Shown piece by piece: positions 853-44,629 of a stretch of 64,000 nt of DNA. The translations under genes were made by a program, and so were the position numbers. Positions within the stretch are counted from its first letter, which is position 1, and the number at the start of each line of letters is the position of its first letter. The stretch is from Lewinellaceae bacterium SD302 (lineage in GTDB: Bacteria; Bacteroidota; Bacteroidia; Chitinophagales; Saprospiraceae), in the NCBI GenBank assembly GCA_002591745.1, contig PDLQ01000005.1, positions 62,001 to 126,000 of the forward strand, given 5' to 3'. Under the pieces are notes generated by a model. That model saw only the letters and a list, made by a program, of their open reading frames with translations. It did no database searches and was not told the origin of the DNA.

Positions 853-3800
853 ATGAAGTTCAGTTTTTTTAATAGCGGGAAGTTTTGGAAACGATTTGCG
901 TTGTTCGCCTTCGCGCTGCCCGTAATATTGATCGGTAGCTTGATCCTGATCATTTATCTGCAGCAAGACAAACTGGTTCAGGGGGAAATAGACGCCCTAA
1001 ATGAAACCCACAACGGGCTAATTGAAATCGGGGATACCCACTTGGCTCCATTTGCCAACTTCCCCTACATCTCTATTAAGGTAGACGACTTCAAGGTTTA
1101 CGAATCGAAAGAAGAAGATGCTTCCGTTATTTTGGATGTAGCGGACATATACGTAGGGTTCAATATGTGGGATATCGTGGCTGCTAAATATGACGTGCAA
1201 AAGTTGCTGGTTGAAGATGGATTTTTCAATGTCATCGAACATAAAGACGGTACTACCAATATCGGAAATGCACTTGCTTCTTCAAATCAGACAGCCGAGC
1301 AAGAAGAGCCACTTGATATTTATCTGAAAAACATTGAACTCAAAAATTTAGACATTCACGAACTCTTTGAAGCAGACAGCCTTGATATTGAAACTTTTAT
1401 TTACTGGGCTAAAAGCGGAATCAAAACGGGCAATGATCAAATTGCTGCTCACATTGACACCGAGTTCGAACTCAATATCATCGAAGGCCGAGATACGAGT
1501 TTTATCAAGAAGAAGCACTTTGAGTTTCATACGGATATCATGTTCAATGAGCTTTCCGGTTTGCTTGAAATAGCACCGTCAGGCATTAAGATGGAAAACG
1601 GTGATTTCATGTTTCATGGCAGCATTGAAACAAAGCAGGATATGACATTGGATTTGCACGTCAACGGTAGCAAGCCAAATTTCGATATGCTTATTGCCTT
1701 TGCTCCTGAAAACCTCATTCAGCTACTGGAGCAATATGAGAATGCGGGTGATTTTTATTTCCTTGCGGATGTGGTCGGCCCTGCGGCTAATGGCCAGATG
1801 CCCTTCATCGATGTACAGTTCGGAGCAGATGAGGCCTTTATGGAAAACGTAGATGTAGGAAAACGAGTAGACAAACTCGGTTTCAAAGGGCACTTTACCA
1901 ATGGAGAGAAAAAGTCGCTTGAAACGATGGAGTTCTCTATTGTAGACTTTACTTCAAAGTTGGAAAAAGGCAGTTTTATTGCTTCGGTTTTTGTGCAGAA
2001 TTTTATCGAGCCAGAGGTAGACTTTGAGTTGCACACAGATTTTAACCTGGATTTTCTCGCTCAGTTTTTTAATCTGTCAGTCATTGAAAACCCCTCGGGT
2101 AATGTGAAATTGGATATGCATTTCCACGATATCATAGACTTAGAGCATCCGGAAAAGGCACTGAACGAATTAAACCAGGCATACTATAGTGAACTGAGAA
2201 TCCAAAACCTGCACGTGGAATCCCCGGATTTGCCCGCACCAATTGATGATCTGGATATGCACTTGGCGATGACGGGCAAGCGGGGTGTTTTGGATACTTT
2301 TAATTTAAGCATGGGCGCTACCGACCTGTCTTTAAAAGGTTCTGTCTCTGATCTGCCGGCAATAGTTCACCACACAAATATTCCAGTTGAAGCAGAGTTG
2401 GAAATTAACTCAAAAATGTTAGACATTTCCGAATTGTCGGGCTTTAGTGCGGGTGATAGTACCGGAATAGATGAACAAATTGAAGATTTGAGTTTGCGCA
2501 TGAAAGTTAAATCCAGCGCGCGCGCATTTACTGAATCTAAGTACTTGCCAGAAGGTGAATTTTTTATAGAAAAGCTTCATGCCCAACTCAAGCACTATCC
2601 GCATGAATTGCACGACTTTCACGCAGATATTATTGTTGATGATAAAGACCTGGAAATTATCGACTTCTCTGGCGAGATCGATAACTCTGACTTTCATGTC
2701 AGTGGTGATGTAAGGAACTACTACGGTTTTTGGATAGAAGATAGTCTGAAGAAAGATGTAAACTTAGACGTTCCGATTGAAGCAGAAATGAGAGTGAGTT
2801 CTGATGTCTTCGATATCGCGGAGCTTACGGGATTTACACTGGGCGATAGCTCCGGGATAGATGAGCAGATTGAAGATTTCATCATGCTGCTAAAATTTAA
2901 TTCCAGCGCCCGTGCTTTCGCAGAATATGAATACTTGCCCGAGGGAGAGTTTTTCATTGAAGGGTTGCACGCTCAACTTAAAAACTATCCTCACGAGCTA
3001 CATGACTTTCATGCCGATGTTCTTATCGATGATCAGGATTTGAGGATTGTCGATTTTTCTGGCTTCATTGATGACTCAGACTTTCACTTCAACGGCGATA
3101 TTCACGACTACACCTTCTGGATGAAAGGCAGCTTGGAAGGAGATGTGAAATTGGACATTAGTTTGAAGTCGGATCTTTTGAAACTAGAGGATGTTTTTTC
3201 GTATCAGGGACAAAACTACGTTCCCGAAGACTACCGCCACGAGGAATTTGATAAGCTGGCTCTACACGTAAATACGGCCATGCATTATAAGGCCTCTGAA
3301 TTGCATTCGATAGACATTGACCTGGATCAGTTTGATGCCAAAATGCATGTACACCCGATGCGATTTGAAGACTTTTTAGGTAGATTTCATTACGAAGATG
3401 AGCACCTCGTAATAGAAAATATGCACGGTAAAATGGGCCGTACCGTCTTCGACATTAATATGAACTACTACCTTGGCAAGGATGAAGCGATTAAGCTAAG
3501 GGATAACCATTTTGGGTTAAAGGCTAATTATATTGACTTTGATCAGTTATTCGCTTTCAACTTAGAGTCACCAAAAAAAATTAGCAATACTGGAGTCCAG
3601 TTAAGTAGGGAGGATGTGGAATCGCATAGCTCAGTATTTAATATTTACGAGCTCCCCTTTACTGATATGACGTTTGATATTGACGTAAATCATTTCATTT
3701 ATCACCAAATTGATTTACAAAATATTCACGGTAGGTTCAGGACAACGCATGATCACTATATCCACGTAGATACAATGAGTTTGAACGTTGCTGATGGAGC

Positions 3801-20449: not shown

Positions 20450-21418
20450 ATGTCCAAATTTCGCGAATGTAATAATCCCTTTATGCGCTATTTTATCCCC
20501 TTTTTCACTTTTTTGATTATTCTGACTGTAAATTCCAGGTTAATTGCTCAACGGGAAGTAGCTATTTTGAAAACGGATCAGCGACAATCGCTCATTACCG
20601 CCAGTCAACTAACGGCAGCAGGCATTTCCTTTCCCTTCTTATTGGAACGCAACCAGATCTGGCTGGAAGCTACCGTAGAGGCCGAACGCGGCTATTTCAT
20701 TTTAGATACCGGCGCACCTACTCTATTATTGAACGATAATGACCAGCGGTCACCGAATCAATTAACTGCCGAGGGTAGGGGAGCTGCCGGCGCGGTAACA
20801 CTTACTGAACATCGGGTTAATTCTTTTTCACTGGCCGGAATCGAGCAGGGGCAACAGTCGGCCTATTTAATTGACCTCGACGGCTTTGCCAAGCGCAGTG
20901 GTAATCACCTCTTGGGAATGATCGGGCACGAACAATTAAAGGATTATGAATTATTGATCGATTGCAAAGAGCAGGAAATGAAACTCTTTCCGGCCCGCCG
21001 CAATGAACTACATAGATCGGCCCGACCGGCCTATACCCTTAGCTTTACCTATGATGAACACCTGCCGGTCATAACCCTCAGAAACGGCCGCAAGAAACTG
21101 CGCTTCGCCATAGACACCGGAGCGGGAGTTAACCTGCTGAATGCTGGCGGTGGCAAACTTCCTGCCGGCCTGCTTACCCTGGAAGAAACCGTTAATGTAA
21201 AGGGACTGGGTGAAGGTGAACAGGAATTGCCCTACGCCAAGCTGCCCGGTCTGCACCTCGACGATCTAAGTCTGGAAAAGGTGGATTTTGTACTCGCCGA
21301 TCTCAGTCACTTGCAATCAGCCGACGGCCATTCGATCGACGGCATCGTGGGGCCGGATTTTTTGCGAAATTTTCGCGTTAGTATCAATTTCCGGAAACGG
21401 AAGCTTTACGTTTGGTAA
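20450..21418 (+). CDS. Secreted retropepsin-like aspartic protease family protein
   Basis: A 322-residue protein; a second ATG at 20483 (MRYFIPFFTFLIILTVNSRL) gives a cleaner signal peptide and may be the true start. It has two half-domains, each with the aspartic protease motif: FILDTGAPTLLLN near residue 82 and FAIDTGAGVNLLN near residue 223. This is the two-lobe arrangement of Bacteroidota aspartyl-protease family proteins (retropepsin-like fold with DTG active sites). It is likely periplasmic; the substrate is unknown. It is divergent from pyrG and ends 35 bases inside the coaE gene on the opposite strand (convergent overlap 21384-21418). Confidence 0.83.
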   Translation: MSKFRECNNPFMRYFIPFFTFLIILTVNSRLIAQREVAILKTDQRQSLITASQLTAAGISFPFLLERNQIWLEATVEAERGYFILDTGAPTLLLNDNDQRSPNQLTAEGRGAAGAVTLTEHRVNSFSLAGIEQGQQSAYLIDLDGFAKRSGNHLLGMIGHEQLKDYELLIDCKEQEMKLFPARRNELHRSARPAYTLSFTYDEHLPVITLRNGRKKLRFAIDTGAGVNLLNAGGGKLPAGLLTLEETVNVKGLGEGEQELPYAKLPGLHLDDLSLEKVDFVLADLSHLQSADGHSIDGIVGPDFLRNFRVSINFRKRKLYVW

Positions 21419-22190
21419 GTATATCGTGTATCGCTAATACCTGAGGCACCAGCAGTTTTTGTCCATCGTTCTCAATTCGATGATCTGCCAATTCCAGCTT
21501 CTTTTCCTCGGGCCACTGTCTGGCCATTCTGGCCCTGACTTGCTCGCTGCTACTGCCGTCACGGGCCATTACCCTGTTCAGTCTGGTGGCTTCCGGAGCG
21601 GTAACCAGGATTACTGCATCCAAGACTTTATAACCACCCGTTTCGAAGGTGATTGCCGCTTCGTAAAGAGTGTAGGGTGCTTTTTGTAGGTCGTGCCAGG
21701 CCCGACTGTCTTTGGCTACGGCGGGGTGTACGATAGCATTTAGTAGGGCCAGTTTTTCGGGATATTCGAATACCTGGGCGGCCAGAAAAGCTCGGTTGAG
21801 TTGATAGCTTTTTGGTGACTTTAAATCTGCCCGGTCAGGAACCAGTCCGGTGGAAGGAACAGGTTCTTCATCGGACTGAGATATTTCAGTTTTTAGACGA
21901 TCGTTAGATTGTTCGACGCTAGTTGTTTGTCCATCATCAACTTCACCAGCTTTGCTACCCCGTCCGACCTGGCGCCTGGCCGGGCGGGTTTGAAGTCCGT
22001 ACGAATAGACTTCCTCTCCGAAAACATCCGTGATTTGATTCCGGATATCTTCCCGTTCCACCATTAGCCGCTTTGCCCGCTCATCAGCGTAATAGACCGG
22101 AACGTTGAGCAATTCGAAAATTTTGGCAACCGTACTTTTGCCACTACCAATATTGCCGGTTAGACCGACGCGAAGACCTGATTGACTCAT
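21384..22190 (-). CDS. coaE: Dephospho-CoA kinase with a ~65-residue repeat-derived insertion
   Basis: A 268-residue protein; the family usually has about 195-210. P-loop GLTGNIGSGKST at residues 9-20, then YADERAKRLM. After the core resumes at YQLNRAFLAAQVF, the conserved HPAV, FETGGYKVLDAVILVTAP and RMARQWPEEKK follow. It catalyses the last CoA step, ATP-dependent phosphorylation of the 3'-OH of dephospho-CoA. Residues 64-128, between FGEEVYS and YQLNRAF where homologues have only a short turn, are a hydrophilic insert (GLQTRPARRQVGRGSKAGEV, later LVPDRADLKS) encoded by a palindrome-ended element. The gene is almost certainly functional, being essential and having no other copy here, so the insert must be tolerated. 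Confidence 0.93.
   Translation of the reverse strand: MSQSGLRVGLTGNIGSGKSTVAKIFELLNVPVYYADERAKRLMVEREDIRNQITDVFGEEVYSYGLQTRPARRQVGRGSKAGEVDDGQTTSVEQSNDRLKTEISQSDEEPVPSTGLVPDRADLKSPKSYQLNRAFLAAQVFEYPEKLALLNAIVHPAVAKDSRAWHDLQKAPYTLYEAAITFETGGYKVLDAVILVTAPEATRLNRVMARDGSSSEQVRARMARQWPEEKKLELADHRIENDGQKLLVPQVLAIHDILTKRKASVSGN
21807..22001. mobile_element. Palindromic repeat element inserted in frame in coaE
   Basis: Left arm 21817-21843 (begins GACTTTAAATCTGCCCGG) and right arm 21971-21997 (ends GGCGGGTTTGAAGTC) are imperfect inverted copies, about 21 of 27 positions matching. The right half (21951-21997: TTTGCTACCCCGTCCGACC then GCGCCTGGCCGGGCGGG) is closely similar to 43994-44042 in the GH26 gene. 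The insert length keeps the coaE frame open. Confidence 0.75.
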
Positions 22191-43411: not shown

Positions 43412-43546
43412 GCTAAAAGGTTACTGAAGCTTGATTTTATTATTTGCCTGAGTCATTCCATTACCGATAGGGGGAAGTGTTACTTACCATCGTATAATAC
43501 GGTCGCTTACACCAGAATCATTTTTTAATTGTTCCTATTCATCGAC

Positions 43547-44629
43547 ATGATTTACCTATCCGACCCTGAGGCGAGCAATTCAGCCCAAACACTTTATCAG
43601 CGACTGGCCATGATCTGCGACAGCCGTACGCTGATCGGTCAACAGGATGCCTTGGCTTATGGGGTGGGGAAGCGGACAGCAACTTACGCCTGGAGGTCCG
43701 ATATGAGTGACGTTTGTGGAAAATTTCCCACTGTATTCGGTTGGGATTTTGGTCACTTGGGCCTGGATGGTCGTAACCTGGATGGTGTAGACTTCGGTTA
43801 CATGAAACTGTGGATGAGCGAAGTTCACCGCCGGGGAGGAATTAACACCGTTAGCTGGCATATGCGCAACCCGCTGACGGGAGGAGACGCCTGGGACACC
43901 GGGCTGCGGGTGGTGCAGGAAATTCTGCCGGGAGGAAGTAAACACGCGCGCTATTTAAGTCGCCTGGATCGAATGGCAGGTTTTATCGATAATCTTGCTA
44001 CTCCGTCCGATCTTGTGCCTAGCCGGGCGGGTTTTTCAGTCCATGAAAAAATCCCATTGATCTTCCGCCCGTTTCATGAACACACCGGCTCCTGGTTCTG
44101 GTGGGGGCAAAAATGGTGTTCAAAAGAAGAGTTCATTCAGCTTTGGCGATTTACGGTTCACTATCTGAGAAATGAGAAAGGCTTGCATCAATTGATCTAC
44201 GCCTATTCTCCGGATCGCTTCAAGGACAAAAGCCACTACCTGGAAAGGTATCCGGGACATGACGTGGTGGACGTTCTAGGGCTGGATGATTACCATGATC
44301 TGGGGAAGAACGGGAAGACTGCGGCCTTGGTCCAACGATTGAGAACGATCGTTGAGCTAGCCGGTGAATATGGAAAACTGGCCGCACTTACGGAAACCGG
44401 ATACGAGTCAATTCCCGAAGCAAACTGGTGGACCGAACGCTTATCACCAGCACTTTTTCAAGACCCGTTAGCGGCTAAGATCGCCTGGGTCTTATTGTGG
44501 CGCAACGATCGTAAAACTCATCACTACGGGCCCTATCCCGGCCACCTGAGTTCGCCGGACTTTATCGCTTTTTCTAAGGATGAAAGAATCACTTTCCTGG
44601 AAGATTTCGCGCAAATAGAGTTATCATAA
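43547..44629 (+). CDS. Glycoside hydrolase family 26 (beta-mannanase-like)
   Basis: A 360-residue protein starting at ATG 43547. Family GH26 motifs: GWDFGH near residue 65, INTVSWHMRNPLTGG near 99, the acid/base Glu (E178) in FRPFHEHTGSWFWWG, GLDDYHD near 245, and the nucleophile Glu in AALTETGYE. It should hydrolyse beta-1,4-mannan or related glycans. No signal peptide or sorting domain is visible, so it would be cytoplasmic, which is unusual for the family. Before the acid/base strand, where homologues have a short DxNGK-like loop, it carries ATPSDLVPSRAGFSVHEK, encoded by a dispersed repeat (43994-44042). Confidence 0.88.
   Translation: MIYLSDPEASNSAQTLYQRLAMICDSRTLIGQQDALAYGVGKRTATYAWRSDMSDVCGKFPTVFGWDFGHLGLDGRNLDGVDFGYMKLWMSEVHRRGGINTVSWHMRNPLTGGDAWDTGLRVVQEILPGGSKHARYLSRLDRMAGFIDNLATPSDLVPSRAGFSVHEKIPLIFRPFHEHTGSWFWWGQKWCSKEEFIQLWRFTVHYLRNEKGLHQLIYAYSPDRFKDKSHYLERYPGHDVVDVLGLDDYHDLGKNGKTAALVQRLRTIVELAGEYGKLAALTETGYESIPEANWWTERLSPALFQDPLAAKIAWVLLWRNDRKTHHYGPYPGHLSSPDFIAFSKDERITFLEDFAQIELS
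43994..44042. repeat. Half-element repeat inside the GH26 gene
   Basis: CTTGCTACTCCGTCCGATCT followed by TGTGCCTAGCCGGGCGGGTT and TTTCAGTCC. It matches the right half of the coaE insert (21951-21997) with about seven differences over the 42 most similar bases. It encodes residues 150-165 of the GH26 protein in frame. Confidence 0.7.

Follow-up and report, generated by a model that had tools for sequence, protein, structure and literature searches.

An in-frame segment of coaE in Lewinellaceae bacterium SD302 carries a copy of a lineage-specific hairpin repeat nested in an abundant genomic motif

The gene for dephospho-CoA kinase (coaE) in the analysed window, which is the whole stretch of 64,000 nucleotides, contains an in-frame insert that is real and lineage-specific. 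The best explanation, to which we give a probability of about 0.7, is that this insert represents an expanded disordered loop formed around a copy of a lineage-specific repeat with two layers, an outer motif with about 1000 copies in the genome and a 30-nt hairpin nested in it. The gene and the parts of its insert are located in the window as follows:

21384..22190, minus strand: coaE, dephospho-CoA kinase, 268 aa, the sole full-length copy in the genome
21807..22001, minus strand: extra CoaE segment, residues 64–128, absent from relatives, a predicted disordered loop between strands 62–64 and 129–131
21943..22004, minus strand: full copy of the 62-nt motif-plus-hairpin repeat (74.8 bits), with the in-frame translation SYGLQTRPARRQVGRGSKAG
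21959..21988, minus strand: 30-nt GC-rich hairpin core of the repeat in coaE
21809..21850, plus strand: decayed inverted second copy of the repeat in coaE, local alignment score 37
21851..21942, minus strand: spacer of about 92 nt that separates the two copies, encodes polar/acidic residues and has no dispersed match

The coaE product scores 107.4 bits against the NCBIfam model TIGR00152 (dephospho-CoA kinase), which has a cut-off of 65.55. The gene is presumably essential, and the single copy assumed in an earlier note on this DNA is borne out by one full-length match in the genome; two further matches, of 40 and 32 residues, overlie other copies of the repeat. The same note had described residues 64–128, encoded by codons 22001–21807, as an excess of about 60 residues over the family norm, and had proposed that alignment of relatives would reveal orthologues free of it. 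Both expectations hold. Among 39 relatives searched, the 38 with a CoaE match all lack residues ~65–128, and their CoaE aligns as two blocks, about residues 3–67 and 125–265, which adjoin in the relatives' own DNA in every case. In a wider genome scan, in which the CoaE relatives include Saprospiraceae and other Bacteroidota, the best 80 of 535 relative-encoding loci were kept, nearly all of them titled Bacteroidota, and 74 were measurable and 6 not. Within these best 80 of 535, the window CoaE is longer than all 74 measurable loci by 49–66 residues, and than 69 of the 74 by 61–64 residues.

An AlphaFold model, obtained from an alignment with 19 relatives, presents pLDDT values of at least 90 at 191 of the 268 residues and below 50 at residues 87–124. 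According to this model the extra segment is a disordered loop that leaves the fold intact; since it lies between the short strands 62–64 and 129–131, it is predicted to replace a beta-turn, which is the kind of site the insert had been assigned to from the sequence.

A nucleotide search of the genome with the 195-nt insert returned 40 BLAST matches (40 of 62 candidates scored), 39 of them besides itself. These 39 cover only query positions ~135–193 of the 195, that is, about 50 nt at the 5′ (coaE-sense) end. The 40 BLAST copies were aligned and converted into a covariance model, which recovered at least 57 genomic copies of a 62-nt unit at E ≤ 1e-3, including that of coaE (E 2.8e-14); as 150 of 2266 first-look candidates were scored, the number is a lower bound. 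The element anticipated elsewhere in the genome is therefore present, and the idea of a palindrome-ended inserted element stands as regards an insertion carrying a dispersed repeat, but the repeated unit is the 62 nt at one end and not the whole 195 nt.

The inverted ends of the segment, also reported earlier, align locally with 26 matches in 34 columns and a score of 36; when the 3′ end was shuffled 2000 times with dinucleotides preserved, no shuffle reached this score. A default exact-seed search for inverted repeats found nothing at the insert, where no exact run in the arms exceeds six bases. The second end proved to be a decayed copy of the 62-nt unit. Its score of 37 was equalled by none of 2000 shuffles and none of 1692 other 75-mers of the window, and it has no covariance-model listing at E ≤ 10. 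A search of 250 nt on either side of all 57 copies found no partner with a score higher than 31 except in coaE (37), and the runners-up had 31 and 30. The arrangement in coaE is unusual, and inverted pairing was rejected as the usual form of the long repeat. The intact coaE motif sits in sense frame 0 and bears the hairpin. The hairpin contributes ten codons of the loop and the decayed copy perhaps ten more; about forty are accounted for by neither.

The consensus of the 57 copies begins with a T-rich stretch, followed by GGCT, two variable bases, CAAA, the 30-nt hairpin, GTAGCA and a looser AAGCTGG. The hairpin itself is GC-rich, with the consensus CCYGCCCGG...CGGACGGG, and in the copy alignment it is fixed exactly between the CAAA and the GTAG of the motif. 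Inside called genes lie 36 of the 57 long copies, and 21 lie outside. By frame, the genic copies comprise 18 in sense 0, ten in antisense 1, six in sense 2 and two in antisense 0; the gene calls come from a simple codon-usage caller, which overlooked at least three ORFs that contain Pfam domains (L122, L138 and L143). The host genes include ribD, uvrA, metG, lnt, murD (near the C-terminus) and those for PBP1C, a GntP permease and a GH26 enzyme, and similar repeat-encoded peptides occur in unrelated proteins. Some long copies near the 5′ ends of long ORFs, such as ileS, are probably upstream of the true start. One more full copy is found in the window:

43986..44047, minus strand: second full 62-nt copy, lying in frame on the antisense strand of a GH26 mannanase-like ORF (43529–44626, plus strand)

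This mannanase-like gene has a net excess of about 7 residues over solved homologues, which is compatible with insertion of the hairpin. A peptide-profile search of the same genome gave 58 matches at E ≤ 1, mostly at the same sites, and these were excluded from the counts. A scan of the window at the Rfam gathering thresholds gave no matches, and none of the 20 congeners had a full-length match to the repeat at E ≤ 0.001.

Two variants of the long copies were observed. Six loci (L150, L156, L157, L158, L159 and L163) form a sub-family with YQ[KM]PARPDEVGRGS-like peptides in which the register of the hairpin is shifted. All six are in sense frame 0 of their ORFs, and some of these ORFs encode proteins of outer-membrane-barrel type. 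In four antisense copies (L124, L143, L151 and L153), peptides of the ATPS...SGR..L type immediately follow what look like signal-peptide cores, as though the cleavage region of these exported proteins now came from the repeat.

The outer stem of the hairpin is paired in 96.7% of cells across 30 distinct sequences. Since covariation in the stem did not exceed that of shuffles, folding as RNA is not demonstrated, and the palindrome may matter only as DNA; the hairpin model R2 was built with a misplaced inner helix. In the wider family, weak matches to the hairpin were found under stricter filters in two of 60 genomes, besides the genome of the window (G000). The 30-nt hairpin is also present three times in one congener (G015), there at the centre of a different long palindrome; these three loci (L166, L167 and L168) have ends like TACACTGCTAGACAAA and a MITE-like appearance.

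The outer motif, TTTTGGCTAACAAAGTAGCAATG, has 1008 near-exact copies in the genome and one match across the 20 congeners. The motif measures about 20–30 bp and is partly palindromic, with the core CAAAGTAGCA. The degenerate pattern GRCTRNCAAAGTAGCARNG, with at most one mismatch, occurs 517 and 491 times on the two strands, while the backward control gives 0; the single stray match aside, the motif was found in one of the 21 genus genomes searched. Versions devoid of the hairpin were also picked up by the covariance model. In the window there are 11 close matches, against 0.02 expected:

431, 11915, 12930, 18105, 25252, 28986: matches to GGCTAACAAAGTAGCAAAG with at most three mismatches, first six of 11 sites
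29407, 38802, 41838, 46544, 55972: matches to GGCTAACAAAGTAGCAAAG with at most three mismatches, remaining sites of the 11

In a complete 366-kb contig and the window together, 101 sites with at most two mismatches were collected (60, 26 and 15 with 0, 1 and 2 mismatches, respectively), and some of those with two mismatches are probably due to chance. Six core positions are invariant in all 101, which is partly built in, since resemblance to the pattern was the basis for selecting the sites. Called genes hold 53 of these sites, 46 are intergenic and two lie on edges; with a coding density of 85%, the motif is about five-fold denser in intergenic than in genic DNA in the sampled 430 kb. A role as intrinsic terminator was rejected: two of 42 intergenic copies with at most one mismatch lie between convergent genes, and such regions make up 18% of the intergenic DNA (11,525 of 64,510 bp). 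A virus collection yielded one exact match to the motif, without the hairpin. The ~1000-copy motif is a candidate genome signal. In one congener (G019), a 1.2-Mb contig (C1) has an over-represented palindrome of its own, CCCGATAGCTATCGGG-like, and ATAGCTATCGGG occurs there 50 times against 0.05 expected; the over-represented k-mers of this congener are different repeats and not the motif.

Orthologue comparisons were used to separate motifs formed in place from inserted DNA. A total of 96 queries (53 genes with short motifs and 43 ORFs with long copies) were compared with the 1.2 Mb of congener G019 and with loci of other relatives, and for 25 of them (19 short, 6 long) the alignment extended across the element. 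Once the ileS 5′ case, two-mismatch sites and matches with less than 39% identity were set aside, there remained 11 short copies and 5 long ones. Among the 11 short copies (at most one mismatch, orthologue identity at least 39%) the net number of extra residues was 0 in five, 2–3 in four and 9–10 in two. Because several genic copies show no change in length relative to orthologues, short motifs appear often to arise in place, and many, not all, would have arisen without adding DNA. One dropped short case, in an AraC-type helix at 30% identity, was also gapless. In IleRS the loop that holds the short motif varies both ways, some congeners having a longer one and others a shorter one.

The five long copies tested (coaE, L123, L135, L141 and L159, the L copies within ±16 residues) all had at least 18 extra residues. 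Random positions in the same alignments served as a control. For four of the copies, values as large came up in 2–5% of draws; for coaE, where the insert fills much of a short alignment, the figure was 27%. As the differences are of at least 18 residues, whole loops, and not the hairpin alone, appear to have been gained in these five cases. UvrA is a simpler case: exactly ten extra residues are found at the hairpin in comparison with all 19 congeners that span it (a 20th did not cover the site), the immediate flanks are gapless and the motif's own codons align to native sequence. A separate difference of six residues lies elsewhere in the protein, and against a distant solved homologue the gap is larger than the ten residues seen against congeners. 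For PBP1C, a match was found in 11 congeners. Eight of these show the same ten-column block, one of them with a net difference of nine, and the remaining three lack more residues at the site. RibD has about 20 extra residues over congeners (19–23 from two-segment matches) and, as aligned, does not fit a simple gain of ten residues by the hairpin, so that here too more than the hairpin appears to have been gained; its site is not spanned by alignments with solved structures. Against solved structures, the copies of MetRS and Lnt fall in variable linkers where insert size is not measurable, and these two were set aside.

These comparisons bear on a rather unlikely alternative, in which the entire ~62-nt motif–hairpin unit would be a single transposable element, similar to a MITE or a Rickettsia palindromic element, that inserts as a block, hairpin-less motifs being deletion scars or solo ends. 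The hairpin and its flanks are conserved together, the RibD difference of ~20 residues is near 62 nt, and the gaps at L123, L135, L141, L159 and coaE are larger still, all of which such an element would account for. On the other hand, the insertions in UvrA and PBP1C amount to ten residues, the codons of the motif being matched there by native sequence, and five of the 11 short copies sit in genes without net change in length, unlike scars. We retain the two-layer reading, with the motif and the hairpin as separate components.

The earlier note took the insertion into an essential enzyme as a sign of selection for insertions that keep the frame, and this turns out to be largely unnecessary. 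Thirty nucleotides make ten codons in any frame or orientation, so the in-frame cases need no selection for frame at the time of insertion; in addition, 54 of the 57 covariance-model matches measure 62 nt, as do 18 of the 21 that fall outside called genes. Purifying selection to some extent is possible, because the three exceptions in length (63 nt, 64 nt and a partial copy of 40 nt) are all outside called genes. It is very unlikely that the coaE insert has been co-opted to regulate CoaE, through partner binding, localisation or an effect of the mRNA hairpin on translation. In favour of co-option, the reading frame of this single-copy gene stays open across the insert, which folds more stably than its shuffles (z = -2.71); against it, the insert is predicted to be disordered, similar peptides occur in unrelated proteins, and it is known from one species only. 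That the insert is an ordinary divergent disordered loop with a chance or convergent GC-rich hairpin would agree with the variable length of turn loops and with the absence of dispersed matches to the middle ~92 nt. This reading is refuted by the repeat matches in the genome (BLAST and covariance model): the match to a 57-member family spans the full 62 nt, and no full-length match was found in the 20 congeners at E ≤ 0.001.

The parallel drawn earlier with the Rickettsia palindromic elements applies in part. Those elements are palindromic repeats within ORFs that preserve the frame, and their size is given as 100–150 bp, with one table row giving 84 (PMC3767692). A palindromic repeat placed in frame in coding genes is common to both, as 36 of 57 copies here are in called genes, and this side of the parallel stands. 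The build differs: against the 100–150 bp of those elements stands a 62-nt unit here, formed by a frame-neutral 30-nt hairpin within a ~30-nt motif that occurs separately in ~1000 copies. The host belongs to another phylum, and the elements were compared by description.

REPs, as described in PMC3733652, are mostly intergenic, with some intragenic cases, uvrA being among the hosts, and in T. roseum the GTAG-23 REPs sit inside small palindromes that have hundreds of copies. The 30-nt core resembles them as an imperfect palindrome of 20–40 nt in many copies, and shares with that account the intragenic cases, including uvrA, and the nesting in target palindromes (PMC3733652). It differs in that 21 of 57 copies here are outside called genes, against mostly intergenic REPs in that text (PMC3733652). 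Regarding the GTAG/CGTC tag, GTAG adjoins the 3′ side of the hairpin here but belongs to the outer motif.

In cyanobacteria, the SDR5 repeat is inserted precisely inside the abundant palindrome HIP1, as stated in PMC4390886. A small repeat module inside a very abundant palindromic genome motif is the shared design, and SDR5 within HIP1 is the nearest structural analogue. HIP1 is 8 bp long and present across many cyanobacteria, whereas the motif reported here exceeds this length, forms an imperfect palindrome and, one stray match aside, is confined to a single genome among the 21 searched in the genus.

The abundance of the outer motif on both strands of the genome also recalls the uptake sequences. 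DUS and USS are hugely over-represented on both strands, in and between genes, and often arise in place. For the outer motif, arising in place would agree with the absence of net change in 5 of 11 copies, with 2–3 residues in four and 9–10 in two. The likeness is one of abundance; the motif, unlike DUS/USS, is not common to congeners, and a function in uptake is putative. DUS/USS are known from Neisseriaceae and Pasteurellaceae, and the host here belongs to Bacteroidota. A search of the literature on intragenic palindromes, REPs and uptake sequences found no description of this repeat in titles and the first parts of abstracts, subscription journals being mostly outside its scope.

For the two-layer repeat we propose the following course. 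The motif of ~20–30 bp would arise often in place, by substitution, where the encoded peptide is tolerated, and the 30-nt hairpin would have come to occupy 57 or more of them, always at CAAA^GTAG, the motif acting as the landing site of a putatively mobile hairpin. Such a pattern would be expected of a small mobile hairpin that favours palindromic sites. In coaE, a motif–hairpin copy, a decayed inverted motif–hairpin copy and ~92 nt of other sequence may together have given the ~62 extra residues; the loop would hang off the beta-turn with the predicted fold undisturbed and the enzyme presumably functioning normally. We also suggest, tentatively and with less than even confidence, that the species may have evolved its own ~1000-copy signal in place, of an uptake-like or HIP-like kind, on which a frame-neutral mobile 30-nt hairpin would land specifically, colonising essential genes in any frame. 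To our knowledge, no genome signal of this kind is known in Bacteroidota.

GTAG/CGTC REP elements have an associated RAYT transposase flanked by the same repeat. The only RAYT-type gene (PF01797) found in this genome lies on contig C59 (L169, ~1387–2033, minus strand). A different palindrome family, GGACCTCCGGTCC, flanks it on both sides, and beyond its 3′ end there are two matches to the motif, in inverted orientation and lacking the hairpin; no hairpin-bearing copy was found in this 3.2-kb locus, and no transposase was linked to the hairpin.

Palindromic insertions that keep the frame had been described from Rickettsia, and REPs inside genes from several further groups. In the genome analysed here the parts are separable: an abundant motif makes the target and a ten-codon hairpin fills it. 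A unit length divisible by three offers a simple reason why essential genes survive such insertions, and the species-specific system is one in which the gain of protein segments derived from repeats becomes testable.
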